A stretch of 64,000 nt of DNA from Dyella sp. M7H15-1 (GTDB taxonomy: Bacteria; Pseudomonadota; Gammaproteobacteria; Xanthomonadales; Rhodanobacteraceae): positions 1,302,001-1,366,000 of the forward strand of contig NZ_CP035300.1 of NCBI RefSeq assembly GCF_004114615.1, given 5' to 3'. This document shows, in pieces, positions 6,259 through 14,296 of the stretch; the stretch's first letter is position 1; each line of letters begins with the position of its first letter. Under the pieces are notes generated by a model. It saw only the letters and a list, made by a program, of their open reading frames with translations. It did no database searches and was not told where the DNA came from. The position numbers and the translations under genes are program-made.

Positions 6259-7554
6259 TCAGGTAGTCAAGTTGGCGAGACGTTGCCGTAATGCATCCAG
6301 GTGCAGATCGTTGCCGGCACCAGGTGATGTACGCGCAGCCAGGCTCGCTTCGGGTGTGCGCCCCTGCCCGGCAGCCGTGACGGCTTCCGCGGCTGCACGA
6401 TAAGCGTCACGGAAAGGCACGCCTGCGGCGGCCTGCTCGATGGCCACGTCGGTGGCATACATGGCCGGTTCGATGGCGGCGCGCATGGCGGTTTCGTTCC
6501 ATTGCATGCGTGCAAGCAGGTCTGGCAGTAGTTCGAGCGCTGCAAGACCATGTGTCACGCCATGAAACAGCGAGCCCTTGGAAAATTGCAGGTCGCGTTG
6601 ATAACCCGAAGGCAACGAAAGCAGTTGTTCAATTTCGCAGCGTGCGGCGGCGACGGTTGCATACGAAGCACGCAGCAGCTCCACCACGTCGGGGTTGCGC
6701 TTGTTGGGCATGATGGAGCTACCGGTAGTGTATTCGGACGGCAGCGTGACGAAATTGAATTCCGCTGTGGTAAACAGCGAAAGATCCCAGGCCAGACGGC
6801 GCGCATCGAGCATGGCGCTGCCGATGCTTTCCATCACGGCCATTTCGAACTTGCCGCGCGAAAGCTGGGCATAGATCGGCGACACCTGCATCCGCGAAAA
6901 GCCAAGCGCCTGGGTGGTGTGGGCGCGATCGAGCGGAAGATTCACGCCGTAACCGGCTGCGGTGCCGAGCGGATTGGCATCAATCCAGACCTCGGTCTGA
7001 CGCGCACGCCATGCGTTATCGACAAAACCCTCGGCAAAGCCGGCGAACCACATCGACGTCGATGAAACCACCGCACGCTGCAAGTGGGTGTAGCCCGGCA
7101 AGGGTAAGGCCGGTTGGGCTGCACGCTGCAAGCATACTTCGGCAATGGTGTGGCAATGCGTTTCCAGTTCGGCGAGCTTTTCCTTCAGCCACAAACGTGT
7201 GGCGACAAGAATCTGGTCGTTACGGCTACGGCCGGTGTGCACGCGACGACCGGCATCACCAAGTCGGTCGGTGAGACGCGCTTCGATGGCAGAATGGCCG
7301 TCTTCGTAACGATCGTCCAGTACAAAATGGCCGGCGCGGAAGTCCTCGACAAGGGCATCCAGTTCGCGTTTGAGATCCTGCATTTCTTGCGCGCTGACCA
7401 CTCCGATATGGGCCAAGCCTTCGACATGCGCCTTGCTGGCAGTGATGTCATGCAGGAAGAATTCGCGATCCAGCAGCACATCGTCGCCGGCCAGGAACTT
7501 CATGATCTTAGCGTTGGTCTCGACACCGTTTTTTTGCCAAAGGAGGTCGGTCAT
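6259..7554 (-). CDS. argH: Argininosuccinate lyase
   Basis: The enzyme splits argininosuccinate into arginine and fumarate, the last step of arginine synthesis. The 431 residues hold the superfamily landmarks HTGRSRND (106-113), the catalytic Thr-His at 156-157 in GYTHLQ, and the signature [12 protein letters not shown] (278-289) with its catalytic serine. It is slightly shorter than the usual roughly 460 residues. It is the last gene of the minus-strand arginine set, 92 bases after argC. No obvious intrinsic terminator follows; the IS5 derivative begins within 20 bases of the stop codon. Confidence 0.95.
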
Positions 7555-7646: not shown

Positions 7647-8600
7647 TCAAATGGGAATGGAGGTGTACTCGTCCATGCCAATCGCCCGATTGATGTTTTG
7701 CATCGCCTGCGTAGCCGCACCTTTCAAAAGGTTATCCAGGGTAGCAACGATGACGACACGCTTGCCGTCTGCCGACACCGCAAAGCCACCCACCTCGGCA
7801 TGATGCTTGCCGGCAACCTGGCTGACCCACGGCGATTCATCCTGCACGCGCACCAGCTTCTCGTCACCATAGGTTCGCTGGAACAACGCAAGAATATCTT
7901 CGTGCTTGTGTGATCGAGCAAGGTACAGATTGGTGGTGACGGTCAGGCCACGAAAATGCGGTGCGACATGCGGCATGAATTCCACCGGGATACCCAGGTG
8001 GCGGCTCGCTTCCTTCTCGTGCATGTGTCCGGTCAAGGAGTACGGCATCAGGTTGTCGCGCAGCTTCTCCGGATTGTTCTTGTCCGACGGAGTGGTGCCT
8101 GCGCCAGAATAACCGGAAACACCGAAACACACCGGCGGTGCTGCCAGCACGCCCTTGAGCGGCGCGATGGACAACTGGATCGCGGTGGCATAGCAGCCGG
8201 GATTGCTGATGCGTTTCTCGCCGCGCCATTGGTTGCGCGTGAGTTCCAACAGGCCGTAGTACCAGGTGTTATCGAAGCGGTAATCGGCAGAAAGGTCCAC
8301 GATCACCGGATCCTTGCCGGCCTTGTCGAAGGCTTCGACGCATACCGACGCCTTGCCATTGGGCAAAGCCAGCACCACCACATCCGCATCAAGGCTAGGC
8401 AGATCTTCATGCGCCGGCGATGTGTAATGCAGATCGCCCTGGTATTCGGGAACGTGCTCATCCACGCGCTGACCATCCAGCTCACGTGACGACACGTACG
8501 CCAATTCCAGCGAAGGATGCGCAGCTACCAGCTTGATCAGTTCTGCGCCGGTGTGGCCACGAGCACCTACGATGCCGATGCGCTTGTTGGAAGCAGCCAT
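7647..8600 (-). CDS. argC: N-acetyl-gamma-glutamyl-phosphate reductase
   Basis: This NADPH-dependent enzyme converts N-acetylglutamyl phosphate to the semialdehyde. The 317-residue frame from the ATG at 8600 begins with the nucleotide-binding loop GARGHTG (12-18) and has the catalytic Cys136 in ISNPGCYAT, and His in the HVAPHFRGL segment. The frame is open upstream, but that part overlaps argB, whose stop is only 5 bases before this ATG, so I take 8600 as the start. Close spacing indicates cotranscription and probably translational coupling with argB. Confidence 0.95.
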
Positions 8601-8605
8601 GATCG

Positions 8606-9922
8606 TTAATCCACCAAAGTCGGTTGACGTACGGCGCAGTGAGCGACGCAACGCTCGATCGTGTCGAAGTCGTGCAGGCCGTACCAGAACACTTTCCAGC
8701 GTTCCTGCTTGTAGCAACCATCCGATTCGGCGTAATAAAAGTGATTCACCTGGTTGCCATGGCGTGACCGCCAGAACAAGCTCGGGTTTTCCTCGCGCAT
8801 CACCAACCATACCGCGCGTCCCAGACCTTCGCCCTTGGCATCATCGAGCACTGCGAATTTATCCAGATAGATCAAGCCGTCCTCGTTGGTGAGGATCATC
8901 GCGGCGCGATAGTTTTCGCTGACGTAGATGCGATAAGGCGTAGTGCGTTCGAAATAATCGTCGACCACCTTGCAGCCGAAGCTGGATTCGATCAGCGTGC
9001 GCATGCGTGCATGATCCACGCCTTCCCAGCTTTCGAAGCAGAACACTTTCTCGCCCCGGCGCACCAGCGTGCCGGAACCTTTGTGCGTAAACAGCTCTTT
9101 CGCCAGCTCCGACGGACGCGTAATCGACACCGACGACGTCAGTGGCAGGCCTTGCAGCAAATCGGCGATCTGCTCGATCTTCACGCGCATGCCGCCATTG
9201 ATCCAAGACTGGGCCATCAGGTGATCGTATTCGGTGCTCAGGTTGATCGAATCGATGACCTGTCCCCGGTCATCCAGCAGACCGCCGGTGCCGGTAAGGA
9301 AGATGATCTTGTACGGTTCCAGCACACGCACCAGTTCGTTAGCGGCGAAGTCGGCATTGATGTTGAGGAACTGGCCTTCGTCGGTTTCGCCAAGGCTGGC
9401 GATCACCGGGATGGAGCCTGCACGCAAACTGGCCTCAATCGGTGCAAGGTTGATGCTATCGACCTTGCCGACCATGCCGTAGACGTCTTTGTCCAGGAAG
9501 CTGGACATGAAGACGCCGGAGGGCACCGAGGTGGCGCGCGTATTCATCGCTTGCAAGGCTTCCACCAGTCGCAGGTTCTGCTGCTGGAACACGCGGCGCA
9601 CAATGCCCAGCGCCTTGGGCGAGGTAACACGTAACCCGTTGACGGTCTGCTTGGTGATGCCGGCCGCCTGCAGTTCTTCATCCAGCTGAGGGCCGGCACC
9701 GTGCAACACGATCGGTGTCAAGCCGACCTGCTGCAGGAAGGTCAGCGATGACGTGAGGTCGGCCAGCTCGTCGCGCAGTACGGCGCCGCCGACCTTGACC
9801 ACAGCGAAGCGCTTGGCATCAAGCTGCGAAAAGCGCTTGAGGTATTGCTGGATTTCCTTGGCGCTGCCCATGGCGGAGAGCAGGCGCACAATGGTCTGGC
9901 GGGTGGTCTTATGCGCTTCCAC
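8606..9922 (-). CDS. argB: Bifunctional N-acetylglutamate kinase / N-acetylglutamate synthase
   Basis: The first roughly 290 residues are an amino-acid kinase domain (VVKVGGAVL near 41-49, [12 protein letters not shown], an [12 protein letters not shown] site and IFLTGTGGL). The last roughly 145 residues are a GNAT domain of the NAT/DUF619 type (for example [18 protein letters not shown] and GEGLGRAVW). Fused kinase-synthases of this kind are known from Xanthomonas and from fungal and animal mitochondria. One protein would thus acetylate glutamate and phosphorylate the product, and arginine would be expected to inhibit it; a stand-alone argA is not needed. The start at 9922 overlaps the end of argE' by 14 bases. 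Confidence 0.93.
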
Positions 9923-11057
9923 GGTTCACGATCTCGTAGATGGTTTCGGCGTATTTTTGCAATTGATCGAGGGCAACCCATTCGTCGGCAGTGTGCGCTT
10001 GGGCGATATCGCCAGGGCCGTAGACGAAGGCGATGTAGCCGCCCGCAGAGAACAGCGCGGCTTCGGTCCAGAAGTTCACGGCATTGCCGACCGGAATGCC
10101 CAATTCATCGGCGATATCGCGTGCGGCAAGGCGCCTTGTTTCGGCGGTAGCGGTATCGCCAGCTGGCAGGGAATCGCCACGGAACAACTCGGTGTAGCTC
10201 AGCGGTTGCGGTTCGACCAGGGTGCGGAAGGTTTCCAGCAGGTGATCCGGTTTCATACTGGGCAGCGGACGGAAGCCAAAACGCACATCCGCCGTCGGCG
10301 CAATCATGTTGGCCTTGATGCCGCCTTCGACGCGACCGACGTTGAAGCGCAAACCGGTCAGGCCGCCGAAACGCTCGCGTGATTGACGCTCCACGTAATC
10401 CAGTGCCGCACTGCCCCAACGGATCGCCTGATGCAACGCGCTGTCGTTGGGGTGCTGCTCGCCGGAAGCATGGCCTGCCTGCCCAACAAAACGCATCTGC
10501 ACGGAATGAATGCCTCGATGTGCCAGCACGGCTTCGCCGCAGGTCGGTTCAGCGACAATCACCGCGTCGTAAGGATGCCCCTCCTTGAGGAAGGCAGCGA
10601 TACAGCGTGGGTCGTTGGCCTCTTCATCCGTGGACAACAGCAAGGCCATATCGCCAGATGTGGCCTTGGCCACCGCCAGCAACGCCGCGGCCGCACCTTT
10701 GATGTCGCTTGCGCCAAGGCCAATTGCGCGATCAGCCGTCACCGTGAGGACGTGCGGATCCTGGGTCCAGTGCGGCGAATCGGGCACGGTATCCAGATGC
10801 ACATTGAACAGATATTTCGGCTTGCCGCGCACGGCATACAGCGTCACCGCGCCCGCGCCATGATCGGCAACGCTCATTTCAAAACCGGGCAGATGTTCGC
10901 GCAAATAATCGAAAATACCGCCGGTGTCGATTTCGCGCGGCGGATTGCGCGTATCGAACGACACCAAAGCACGCAAATGCGTCAGCGTCGCATCGAGCAA
11001 TGCTGCTTCCCCGATTCCCGATTCCCGATTCCCGATTCCCACGCTCCCAGCACTCAT
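9909..11057 (-). CDS. argE': N-acetylcitrulline deacetylase (ArgE' type)
   Basis: This M20-family metallopeptidase-like enzyme would remove the acetyl group from N-acetylcitrulline in the route that uses ArgF'. The 382 residues show [12 protein letters not shown] (first metal ligands), LSTDEEAND (catalytic Glu) and [13 protein letters not shown]. The ATG at 11057 overlaps the argG stop as ATGA, which supports this start. Residues 7-17 are encoded by a simple tandem repeat (GGGAATC units, 11009-11040), so the N-terminal tail looks like a later addition. Assignment to acetylcitrulline rather than acetylornithine rests on the presence of an acetylornithine carbamoyltransferase in the same set. 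Confidence 0.85.
11009..11040. repeat. Tandem GGGAATC repeat inside the argE' N-terminus
   Basis: On the + strand CCCGATT units repeat four times in a row, and the reading frame of argE' passes through them as a Gly/Ile/Asn/Arg/Glu/Ser tail. A relative of this repeat (GGGACTC units) sits inside valS at 25046-25078. Confidence 0.8.
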
Positions 11058-12274
11058 CGGTTCACCTCAGCCCACAAGGTGCTGCTCATGCCGAACAGCT
11101 TGATGAAGCCTTCCGCCTCAGCCACGCCCCAGTCTGCCGCCTGCGCATAGGTAGCGCCCTTGGCATTGAGGATATGACGGGATTCGACGGCGATTGCATT
11201 GACGACGCCGCCGGTGGTTTCCAACGTGACATCGCCGTTGACGGTTGCCTGGCTGGACGCCAGAAAAGCTTCGAGGTCGGTCTTGAGCGGATCGTGGTAG
11301 AAGCCCTCGTACACCAGCTCCACCCACTTGCGTGCGACGTCCGGCTTGAAGCGATTCTGATGCTTGGTGAGCACGGCTTCTTCCAGTGCACGATGCGCGA
11401 CCAACAATGCGGCAAGACCTGGCGCTTCGAAAATGATGCGACCCTTCAGGCCAATGGTGGTGTCGCCGGTATAGATACCGCGGCCCACACCGTATTGCGC
11501 CAGCAGTGTGTTGAGCTTGGCGAGCATCTTGTGGCCGGCGATCTTCTCGCCATCCAGCGCCACCGCCTCGCCGTTGACGAAACTGATCTTCAGGCGCAAC
11601 GATTTGGACGGCCATTCGGCGCGCGGCTTGCACCAGCCCATCGCACCTTCGCCCGGCGCCTGCCAGCGGTCGATCTCGCCGCCAGACATGGTCAGGCCGA
11701 GCAGGTTTTCGTTGATGGTATACGCCTTCTGCTTGGCACGCACGCCAAAGCCGAGGTTTTCCAGATACTTCTGCTCGTAGGCACGAACTTCCGTGTGTTC
11801 TTTCTGGATTTCGCGGATCGGCGCGACGATCTCGTAATCGCCCTGCCCCTTCACTGCCAGGTCGAAACGCACCTGGTCATTGCCCATGCCGGTGCAGCCG
11901 TGCGCAATCGCCTTGGTACCCAGCTCGGCGCAGCGCTTCAATGCCGCGTCCACGATCAGGTAGCGGTCGGACACCAATAACGGATACTGCGACTGGTAAC
12001 CCTCGCCAGCCCACACGAATGGTTTGACGAAGCCATTCCAGATCGCCGGGCCGCCGTCGATGGTCTGATGGCTGACCGCCTTCAGTTCCTTGGCGCGCGC
12101 TTCGATGTAAGCGCGCTCTTCATCGTCCACGCCACCGGTGTCGGCGAACACGGTATGCACGGCCCAGCCGCGTTCTTGCAGGTAGGGAATGCAGAAACTG
12201 GTGTCGAGGCCACCGGAAAAGGCGAGAACGATGTTTTTGTTGTGGCTGACGGGACTCGGGGTGGCATTCGACAT
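11054..12274 (-). CDS. argG: Argininosuccinate synthase
   Basis: The enzyme joins citrulline and aspartate with ATP. The 406 residues begin after a short polar lead with the PP-loop SGGLDTS (20-26), followed by [24 protein letters not shown] and MSGGEIDRW, all characteristic. It heads the tight block argG-argE'-argB-argC. An A+T-rich gap of about 100 bases separates it from the PaiB-type gene and could hold its own promoter, for example a weak TTGTTC, 18 bases, TAATAC pair on the minus strand. Confidence 0.95.
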
Positions 12275-12370: not shown

Positions 12371-13000
12371 TCACCCATGACGACGCTCCTCGGCTTGTTG
12401 CATCAGGTCGGCAAGCTCGGCATCGCGCAGTCCTTCCCGCTCACCCAGTCCCCTGACCACACCGGCACGATTGGCATCAGGATGGTTCTGGCTCAACTTG
12501 AACTTGCCTTCGATCCGATCGATGCTGATTTCCAGCCCGACGATGGTCTTCAGCATTTTCTGGATGTAATCTTCCGGCGCATCGCTGACCTGCCAGGGCC
12601 TGGGTTGTGACGCTTCGTGACGGTCCGTCAGCCGCTCGAGAAAGCCACGCAGCCAGGCTTTGTCTTCGATCACTCGCAAACGGCCGTGCACATGCACCAC
12701 GGCGTAATTCCAAGTCGGCACCTCGCGCCCGGTTTCATGCTTGCTCGGATACCAGTGGGGACTGATGTAGCCGTTGGCTGCCTGGAACATCACCAGCACT
12801 TGCGCGCCGTCAGCCTTGGTCAGTTCATTGCCGCGCGCAACGTGCCCCTGCAGCAAGCCGTCACCCGCCAGTTCCAGCGGCAGATGATTGGCTGTCAGCC
12901 CTCCGGCTCCATGCATGACCACGGTGCCGAGCGGATAGTCGCGAATCAGCGCATGCAGCACATCGATGCGCGTTTCGTGGAAGGATTTGGGCAGGTACAT
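12371..13000 (-). CDS. PaiB-type FMN-binding protein (putative transcriptional regulator)
   Basis: The 209-residue product has the PaiB family landmarks: an N-terminal MYLPKSF, HLPLEL, the VMFQAANGYISPHWYPSK segment and VPTWNYAVVHVHG, which form the split-barrel flavin pocket. In Bacillus, PaiB with PaiA was linked to repression of sporulation and degradative enzymes, but most homologues have no proven role. It sits between argF' and argG on the same strand, 15 bases after argF', so it is probably cotranscribed with argF'. A link to arginine control is possible but not shown by the sequence. Confidence 0.85.
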   Translation of the reverse strand: MYLPKSFHETRIDVLHALIRDYPLGTVVMHGAGGLTANHLPLELAGDGLLQGHVARGNELTKADGAQVLVMFQAANGYISPHWYPSKHETGREVPTWNYAVVHVHGRLRVIEDKAWLRGFLERLTDRHEASQPRPWQVSDAPEDYIQKMLKTIVGLEISIDRIEGKFKLSQNHPDANRAGVVRGLGEREGLRDAELADLMQQAEERRHG

Positions 13001-13015
13001 GACGTGTTCTGCGGC

Positions 13016-14023
13016 TCAATGTTGTGCGATCAGCGAGGCCATCACCGCCTTCTGCACGTGCAGGCGGTTCTCTGCTTCATCGACAGCGATGCATGCGGGC
13101 GAATCCATCACCGCGTCGGTCACCTTGATGTTTCGACGCAGCGGCAGGCAGTGGCTGAAAACGCCGTTGTGGGTCAGTGCCATCTTGGCTTCATCGACGA
13201 TGAAATGCTTGTGCGCGTCGCGGATCGGCTTTTCCTGCTCCCAGCGGTCGAAGAACGGCAAAGCGCCCCAACTCTTGGCGTAGACCACGTCGGCGCCGCG
13301 ATAGGCTTCCTCGATGTTATGGCTGACCTTGAGCGAACCGCCGTTTTCCCTGGCATTCTGCTCGCCGAAGGCCATGTAACGCTCGTCCAGCACGTAATCG
13401 GGTGTGGGGCACAGCAGGGTCACGTCCATGCCCATCTTGGTGGCGATCAGCAAGGCGGAATTGGCCACGGCGGTGTTGAGCGGCTTGGGATGATAGGTCC
13501 AGGTCAACACATACTTGCGGCCGCTGAGATCGCCAAAGCGCTCCTTCAGTGCCAGCGCGTGTGCCAGTTCCTGGCAGGGATGAGTGATCGTTTCCATGTT
13601 GATCACCGGCACCGTGGCGTACTGCGCGAAGGCCTTGATCACAGCATCTTCACGGTCCACCGACCAATCCTGGAATTTGGGGAAGGCGCGCACTGCAATC
13701 AGATCGACATAGCGGCTCAGCACACGCGCCACTTCAGCGATGTGTTCTTCGGCTTCGCCATCCATCACCACATTCGGACGAAACTCGATCGGCCATGCGT
13801 CCTTGCCGGGCGACAGCACGATGGCATGGCCGCCGAGATGGAAGGCACCCAGTTCGAAACTGGTGCGCGTACGCATCGAAGGATTGAAGAACAGCAATGC
13901 CATCGACTTGCCAGCAAGCTGCTGACCACATGGCGAGCGCTTGAAAACGGCAGCCTGTTCAAGCAACGCGTCGATTTCAGCGCGGTTGTAATCCTGGGTG
14001 GTTAGAAAATGGCGAAGCGACAT
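13016..14023 (-). CDS. argF': N-acetylornithine carbamoyltransferase (ArgF' type)
   Basis: This transcarbamylase carbamoylates N-acetylornithine instead of ornithine, giving N-acetylcitrulline. The 335 residues hold the carbamoyl phosphate loop SMRTRTSFE (49-57), HPCQELAHAL, and HCLPLRRN near the C-terminus. VMDGEAEEHIAEV and KPLNTAVANSAL are typical of the acetylornithine group described in Xanthomonas. I start at the ATG at 14023; the 13 upstream codons run into the terminator hairpin and are unlikely to be translated. A leader ORF rich in Arg codons and a terminator lie directly upstream, suggesting attenuation. Confidence 0.93.
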   Translation of the reverse strand: MSLRHFLTTQDYNRAEIDALLEQAAVFKRSPCGQQLAGKSMALLFFNPSMRTRTSFELGAFHLGGHAIVLSPGKDAWPIEFRPNVVMDGEAEEHIAEVARVLSRYVDLIAVRAFPKFQDWSVDREDAVIKAFAQYATVPVINMETITHPCQELAHALALKERFGDLSGRKYVLTWTYHPKPLNTAVANSALLIATKMGMDVTLLCPTPDYVLDERYMAFGEQNARENGGSLKVSHNIEEAYRGADVVYAKSWGALPFFDRWEQEKPIRDAHKHFIVDEAKMALTHNGVFSHCLPLRRNIKVTDAVMDSPACIAVDEAENRLHVQKAVMASLIAQH

Positions 14024-14051
14024 CGTTGACTCCAGTCCGAAAAAGCAAAAA

Positions 14052-14073
14052 ACCCGGCGCAAGGGCCGGGTTT
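14052..14073 (-). terminator. Intrinsic terminator in the argF' leader (attenuator candidate)
   Basis: On the minus strand an 8-bp stem (14073-14066 with 14059-14052) and a 6-base loop are followed by a run of T. It ends about 30 bases before the argF' ATG. The outer arm ACCCGGCC (14072-14065) can instead pair perfectly with GGCCGGGT at 14116-14109, which covers the last codons and stop of the leader ORF. The two pairings exclude each other, as in amino-acid attenuators. Confidence 0.7.
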
Positions 14074-14106
14074 TGTCGTCGTATTCACTTGCAACGTGGC
14101 GACAGC

Positions 14107-14211
14107 CTACCCGGCCGAATGTCGGTCCAGCGGTCGACGCGCACGCGAAGTCATGCCAGCGGCCATGCGGGCGCTGGTAAGCACGATAGCGGTATAGACG
14201 GCTGCGGACAT
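14107..14211 (-). CDS. Putative arginine leader peptide for argF'
   Basis: A 34-codon ORF starts with MSAAVYTAIVLT and ends with TSRARRPLDRHSAG; it contains five Arg codons, four of them within the last 12 codons. The stop lies 34 bases before the terminator hairpin. A stalled ribosome at Arg25-Arg26 would leave the segment 14116-14109 free to pair with the first arm of the terminator and prevent termination; a ribosome at the stop would mask it. A GGAA sits a few bases before the ATG, and a second in-frame ATG at 14241 would give 44 residues. Function is inferred from layout only; the peptide itself resembles nothing I know. Confidence 0.5.
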   Translation of the reverse strand: MSAAVYTAIVLTSARMAAGMTSRARRPLDRHSAG

Positions 14212-14296
14212 GGGGATTCCGGGTAGTTGAATTTCAATCATGACTGGATTTGCGTTGCCATGCAACAAAAAACGCCGGCAAGCCGCCAAAACAAAA

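Follow-up and report, generated by a model that had tools for sequence, protein, structure and literature searches.

The argF' gene of Dyella sp. M7H15-1 is preceded by a short open reading frame (ORF) rich in Arg codons and by an intrinsic terminator, and this leader is very probably a ribosome-mediated, arginine-responsive transcription attenuator of the arginine operon that follows, a reading well supported by comparison with related genomes at the level of sequence. The observations concern the parts of the switch, their conservation, two alternative RNA folds, the geometry of the ribosome relative to these folds, the choice of Arg codons and the scarcity of the repressor ArgR among relatives. 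The most interesting part of the leader is a peptide core that is frozen in a large group of these relatives. All positions refer to the stretch of 64,000 nucleotides that was analyzed, hereafter the window.

The genes downstream of the leader all run in the same direction (minus strand), and the operon makes arginine. The first one, argF' (N-acetylornithine carbamoyltransferase, 13016–14023, ATG at 14023), matched NF003384 with 603 bits (cut-off 288). It is followed by a 209-aa ORF without NCBIfam match (12371–13000), argG (argininosuccinate synthase, 11054–12274, identified by an NCBIfam match), an argE-type deacetylase (9909–11057, NF006439), argB (acetylglutamate kinase, long form, 8606–9922, NF003386), argC (7647–8810, TIGR01850, with the match from ORF residue 77 on) and argH (argininosuccinate lyase, 6259–7554, TIGR00838). 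No such leader was seen by eye at carA and argD, the two other loci inspected in this genome, and the leader is therefore tied to the argF' operon; two further leader-profile matches in the genome were weak (E 0.005 and 0.02). Between carA and carB (L298) we observed a short tandem repeat of GGGACTC plus its complement. Elsewhere in the window, a Group II intron match (RF00029, 34481–34583, minus strand) scored 46.1 bits against a cut-off of 40.

The leader ORF (14107–14211, minus strand) starts with ATG at 14211, ends with TAG at 14109–14107 and encodes MSAAVYTAIVLTSARMAAGMTSRARRPLDRHSAG. In line with the preliminary description, it has 34 codons plus the stop, and four Arg codons fall within the last 12 (R23 CGT, R25 CGT, R26 CGA and R30 CGA), with R15 lying earlier. 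The proposed stall codons R23, R25 and R26, with A24 in between (14134–14145, minus strand), close a conserved core, A14–R26 (ARMAAGMTSRARR, 14134–14172, minus strand). A high Arg content of an ORF alone is not probative in a GC-rich genome; it is the conservation among relatives that takes the layout beyond chance. Upstream of the ORF, on the same strand, are a −35-like TTGCAT (14260–14265) and a −10-like CATGAT (14237–14242) with a spacer of 17 bases. The arrangement TTGCAT-N17-CATGAT recurred by eye in several relatives, and a strict promoter scan of the window did not pick up the −35-like TTGCAT.

The intrinsic terminator (14049–14074, minus strand) consists of a stem (14074–14065 and 14058–14049) and a loop (14064–14059), followed by the T-rich tail TTGCTTTTTC. 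The sequence ACCCGGCC (14064–14071, minus strand) is an arm common to the terminator and to an antiterminator, the other strand of which is the pairing segment GGCCGGGU (14109–14116, minus strand), overlapping the last leader codons and the stop. The position given previously for this segment (GGCCGGGT at 14116–14109) was right, whereas the arm ACCCGGCC spans 14071–14064 and not 14072–14065. Similarly, the general layout stands, but 32 bases rather than 34 separate the stop from the stem, and 25 rather than about 30 separate the stem from the argF' ATG. The latter gap reaches several hundred bases in some relatives, and in those transcription of argF' may start downstream of the terminator.

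The two pairings had been proposed to be mutually exclusive, and RNA folding reproduced both alternatives. When the RNA was cut before the second terminator arm, the GGCCGGGU:ACCCGGCC hairpin formed (−23.5 kcal/mol), lengthened in the fold by a hairpin between stop and terminator (UGUCG...CGACG, 14078–14104, minus strand), while the full-length leader RNA folded into the terminator (−27.4 kcal/mol). Since the terminator is the more stable by 3.9 kcal/mol, only a kinetic switch would work, in the manner of known attenuators. When the 12 bases directly behind codon 26 were covered, the antiterminator existed before the second arm and the terminator afterwards. Untranslated window RNA also formed the antiterminator before the second arm, so that, unlike in trp, an untranslated leader would default to read-through. 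Further, the folds of the window showed no clear early hairpin of the trp type, by which transcription would end in the absence of translation; such a hairpin is not known to be common to all attenuators.

From this arrangement we infer stalling on low Arg-tRNA, its timing and the direction of control. The ribosome would translate the leader close behind RNA polymerase and, when Arg-tRNA is scarce, would stall at R23-R25-R26. With R26 in the A site, GGCCGGGU would be free and could pair with ACCCGGCC while the second terminator arm is still to be transcribed, and the antiterminator so formed would allow the polymerase to continue through argF' and the downstream genes. With ample Arg-tRNA, the ribosome would reach the stop and cover GGCCGGGU, the terminator would form and transcription would end. 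The earlier suggestion that stalling at Arg codons relieves termination would largely hold, with the difference that folding points to the ribosome at the stop, and not to a preformed early hairpin, as what guards the segment. The leader thereby combines a cluster of end-product codons, an intrinsic terminator, an exclusive pairing and a geometry in which the segment is free upon stalling and masked at the stop, as attenuators do.

The distribution of the leader was determined with a peptide profile run on 398 sampled genomes of the order (threshold E 0.01). The profile matched in 276 genomes, among them 125/125 of the window's family (f1) and 128/128 of a second, Xanthomonas-like family (f2); matches were counted per genome, irrespective of their position, and part of the remaining 23 genomes had weak matches away from argF'. 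By inference, f2 is the Xanthomonas family, since nine of 12 loci searched exceeded the cut-off of the Rfam family RF02242 and all nine belong to f2. In a class-wide sample of 274 genomes, which includes three matches within the order, only one of the 271 others matched, weakly (G460, E 9.9e-4). Weak profile matches at L132–L134 and L136–L138 (families f8–f12) were discarded as having no ArgF' nearby.

A search with ArgF' yielded 80 loci, mostly from Dyella, Rhodanobacter, Frateuria and Luteibacter, 77 of which proved to carry the leader by a strict motif search. Two others (L008 and L012) have one base changed, and L070 was excluded because its contig starts 66 bases before argF'. Four leaders use a GTG start. 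MTSRARR was present in all 202 core-type leaders read before argF', and the position before argF' was kept in every one of these loci. While 122 loci were fetched through the leader profile, 79 named loci were fetched by ArgF' and are so free of that selection, as is the comparison of f1 and f2 in the order survey. Some loci deserve separate mention. In L027 (100–165) the core is kept and the leader start is replaced near the contig end by a sequence resembling a sequencing adapter, an assembly artefact. L009, titled Candidatus Eremiobacteraeota, has the same leader and an ArgF' 94% identical to that of the window, and its contig is probably misassigned. L118 and L168, from a genus (g53) with reduced genomes of 2.5–2.8 Mb, keep MTSRARR, have lost Arg15 and have the stop five codons after R26.

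Conservation of the Arg codons had been put forward as a check of the attenuator, and it was borne out: R23, R25 and R26 encode Arg in 162/162 distinct window-type leaders, and remote families carry Arg clusters in the same place. A terminator lies between leader and argF' in 161 of these 162, the exception (L130) being a wrongly chosen ORF. The pairing segment begins 20–21 bases after the R26 codon, counted from its first base, in 145/161 leaders, and this distance is also kept where the stop codon has moved (e.g., L117, L154, L169 and L171). In a geometry based on ribosome footprints from the literature, the segment was free in 160/161 leaders with R26 in the A site, and a ribosome at the stop covered at least half of it in 158/161.

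The second pairing was also kept. Base 3 of GC(C/T)GGG faced its arm partner as C-G in 95 leaders, T-A in 42, T-G in three and C-A in two, so the changing base was matched in 140 of the 142 leaders with both motifs readable (in the other 19 of 161, one motif was unreadable or otherwise different). Duplexes with the leader's own arm averaged −14.5 kcal/mol compared to −13.3 kcal/mol with swapped arms, a difference equalled in none of 5000 permutations; set against foreign arms one by one, the own arm gave the stronger duplex in only 56% of cases and the weaker one in 22%. Mapped on a tree built from 111 ArgF' proteins, the changing base showed 9 and 11 changes, with only three supported independent pairs and a non-significant sign test. 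The pairing that the preliminary description had asked to be aligned is thus conserved, but its covariation on the tree comes down to few independent events and falls short of significance.

Next to the MTSRARR leaders, we analyzed 49 argF' loci from families f4–f11 that either had no profile match at argF' or were chosen for distance; L228–L235 (the ArgR family f12, fragments and paralogues) are outside this set. A terminator preceded argF' in 42 loci, and an Arg-cluster ORF followed by a terminator was present in 41, which include the MTSRARR-type L209 and the doubtful L294; the ORF before the terminator of L272 was spurious and was excluded. The scan found no terminator in seven loci (L210, L219, L223, L225, L283, L285 and L287), of which L285 and L287 have Arg clusters nonetheless, while the other five showed no clear Arg leader. 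The clusters include RRRR, RRLRRP and RRRSRRP, with MMNTHASAHNRTNPRRRRVLQSTAG (L211), MMNRPANKDIRRLRRPRTGNRAG (L220) and ...VVVRRRRPLRQMELFG (L226) as examples, and at least four Arg per seven codons occurred in 33/42 remote leaders vs. 21/400 random stretches.

The pairing segments of the remote leaders differ in sequence and fit their own arms, as in CCAGGUU:AACCUGG (L227) or in CUCUUUGG with CCAAAGAG (L226), where the partner lies partly in the loop. In 15 remote leaders, with the last Arg codon and the arms assigned by hand, own-arm duplexes averaged −14.0 kcal/mol vs. −7.2 kcal/mol for shuffled segments; the pairing was weak in L213, L215 and L212, where 59, 56 and 14 of 300 shuffles, respectively, were as good. 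Codon choice was likewise narrow. The run codons were CGC, CGA or CGU in 67/67 hand-assigned cases and in 162/170 by automatic assignment, while Arg codons elsewhere in the hand-assigned leaders were CGG, AGA or AGG in 10/22 and CGC, CGA or CGU in 12/22. Among MTSRARR-type leaders, the core stall codons were CGU, CGC or CGA in 485/486. These three codons are decoded by one type of tRNA-Arg, which carries inosine.

ArgR, a DNA-binding protein, is the usual arginine repressor, and its regulon targets the same pathway by means unlike those of a leader. Attenuation by arginine had been called unusual against this background, and no match to PF01316 (ArgR family) was found in the window's genome, which hence has no ArgR gene detectable by a search that does detect the family in E. 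coli and in eight other control genomes. Within the order, PF01316 was absent from 291 of 299 genomes and was found in eight, all of the distant family f12. Four f12 genomes have argF' no more than about 1.4 kb away from ArgR on the same contig, and the f12 argF' loci L228–L231 showed no Arg leader by eye. Neither ArgR nor leader was found in family f6 and in part of f10.

With regard to the peptide core, A14, A17 and M20–R26 were invariant across the 162 distinct leaders, in contrast with Arg15, which was kept in 135. T21 was always Thr, with four codons in use (ACC 71, ACG 61, ACT 23 and ACA 7), and wobble bases vary at T21, R23 and R25. S22 was TCG in 160/162 distinct leaders while neighbouring wobble bases vary, and R26 was CGA in 159/162, a codon that accounts for 47 of the 3160 Arg codons of argF' at the same loci. 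The frozen Ser codon UCG could conceivably pair with CGA, the likewise frozen Arg codon; both are nearly invariant. When 40 of the 77 f1 leaders were compared with 59 leaders from the other groups, M20–R26 gave a pN of 0.000 and a pS of 0.34, whereas pN and pS were 0.49 and 0.49 for residues 7–12 and 0.70 and 0.73 for residues 28–32. Since pN is far below pS in the core and close to it in the flanks, the core is constrained as a peptide and the remainder is not. MTSRARR is frozen at the protein level, which attenuation by a run of codons does not need, and the nascent chain is conserved over a tunnel-length stretch before the stall site in the 162 distinct leaders, as in arrest peptides.

It is conceivable, albeit on the less probable side, that the nascent MTSRARR(P) itself slows the ribosome and perhaps senses arginine, with the same RNA switch as readout. 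The immobile core beside unconstrained residues 7–12 and 28–32, together with a Thr kept through four codons, argues for this variant, in which the arrest would be helped by the CGA codon, which is read poorly, and by the Pro after it. In the parts of the report available to us, CGA was poorly read in the Salmonella his leader and gave the highest de-attenuation among CGU, CGC and CGA (PMC4046918). On the other hand, families f5–f11 apparently do the job with plain Arg clusters in which the motif is absent, and an arrest at R26 caused by high arginine would expose the pairing segment, the opposite of the response expected of a biosynthetic operon. A tentative view is that the leader would be the first arginine-specific attenuator of a biosynthetic operon in bacteria, spread through an order in which ArgR is rare, and that in four families, two large and two smaller, it may have changed from a plain run of Arg codons into a sensor working through a frozen nascent peptide. 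MTSRARR and the invariant, poorly read CGA might then sense arginine via the peptide as well as via codons.

Less likely still is that the terminated leader acts in trans, either as the small RNA Xoo5 or through its peptide, with control of argF' being secondary. In Xanthomonas oryzae, an RNA of ~124 nt was cloned, detected by Northern blot and named sRNA-Xoo5; it precedes PXO_00353, which encodes N-acetylornithine carbamoyltransferase (PMC3039613). According to the accessible text of that paper, of the two bands seen early (~130 and ~100 nt) only the shorter persisted at later times, the cloned 3' end gave 124 nt, and deletion of Xoo5, which is Hfq-independent, left growth in rich or minimal medium, virulence, enzymes and flanking genes unaffected. 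The Xoo5 RNAs fall short of the ~160 nt that a transcript ending at the terminator should have, possibly as a result of processing. The Rfam model RF02242 begins two bases before the leader ATG and the RACE 5' end of Xoo5 falls at that point, which leaves the leader ORF almost without a 5' untranslated region. The nine f2 loci above the RF02242 cut-off of 50 scored 54–144 bits, while the window leader, with 25.9 bits, fell below it; at curated thresholds Rfam gave no match at the window leader. By place and peptide core, the window leader is nevertheless homologous to the RF02242 leader as judged from sequence. A Pseudomonas rnk leader match (27.9 bits at a low threshold) was rejected, being below its cut-off and following the terminator hairpin.

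A role in trans would be in line with the conserved peptide and with the trp leader peptide, described in the available portion of a Sinorhizobium study as acting in trans (PMC7298713). It is at odds with the nature of the conserved parts, i.e., the Arg codons, the pairing segment at fixed distance and the terminator, which are those required in cis, with the constant place before argF' in 202 loci, with the free divergence of the non-core RNA between families, and with the Hfq independence of Xoo5 and its deletion without phenotype, as given in what could be seen of that report (PMC3039613).

A general sensor of slow translation in place of an arginine sensor, for instance one based on stalling of the macrolide type at R-x-R motifs, appears very improbable. 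The RAR and RRxRR motifs fit it, and an Arg-Leu-Arg leader before hflX has been read in this way in the part of the publication seen (PMC8632094). Every leader that we read, however, precedes an arginine-synthesis gene, and the codons are confined to those of one tRNA-Arg type. Finally, the view that the hairpin is just the 3' terminator of the preceding gene, next to a chance ORF, can practically be set aside: although terminators are common in the region (three terminator-like sites vs. 1.5 ± 1.4 expected from shuffling), that gene already has a T-rich hairpin of its own (14289–14275), and a core pN far below pS, i.e., conservation, contradicts a chance ORF.

Several observations were weighed against the attenuator itself, namely the Xoo5 deletion without phenotype, the short Xoo5 RNAs, read-through of untranslated RNA, the few independent covariations, the weak pairing in L212, L213 and L215, the seven of 49 remote loci lacking a terminator, and a frozen peptide that attenuation does not require. 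The attenuators of trp, his, leu, ilv, thr and phe operons likewise have end-product codons, an antiterminator overlapping the ORF end and an intrinsic terminator; unlike them, the arginine leader has a frozen core and no clear early hairpin. A survey from 2004 of proteobacterial attenuators reportedly covers branched-chain, histidine, threonine, tryptophan and phenylalanine operons, and the main text of a survey of premature terminators does not mention arginine or argF. The orf34 leader of Salmonella speF also senses arginine, by ribosome pausing at consecutive Arg codons, but, in the accessible sections of its description, it differs in controlling a polyamine gene and in relying on Rho termination together with RNase G-dependent mRNA decay rather than on an intrinsic terminator ahead of genes for arginine synthesis (PMC6386406). 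Xoo5/RF02242 is the same leader in the same place before argF', described as an sRNA with no ORF, attenuator or arginine role assigned in the available text (PMC3039613). Searches confined to the open-access literature yielded no report of genes for arginine synthesis preceded by a leader attenuator for arginine.

If the attenuator is real, it would explain how arginine synthesis is controlled in a large order that includes many soil- and plant-associated species and has little ArgR. Arginine would join the amino acids sensed through leader-peptide attenuation, and a catalogued sRNA, RF02242, would become a cis leader. Further, the frozen core, found beside the free Arg runs of sister lineages, would offer a natural comparison of how, in a leader, the counting of codons may give way to the sensing of a peptide.
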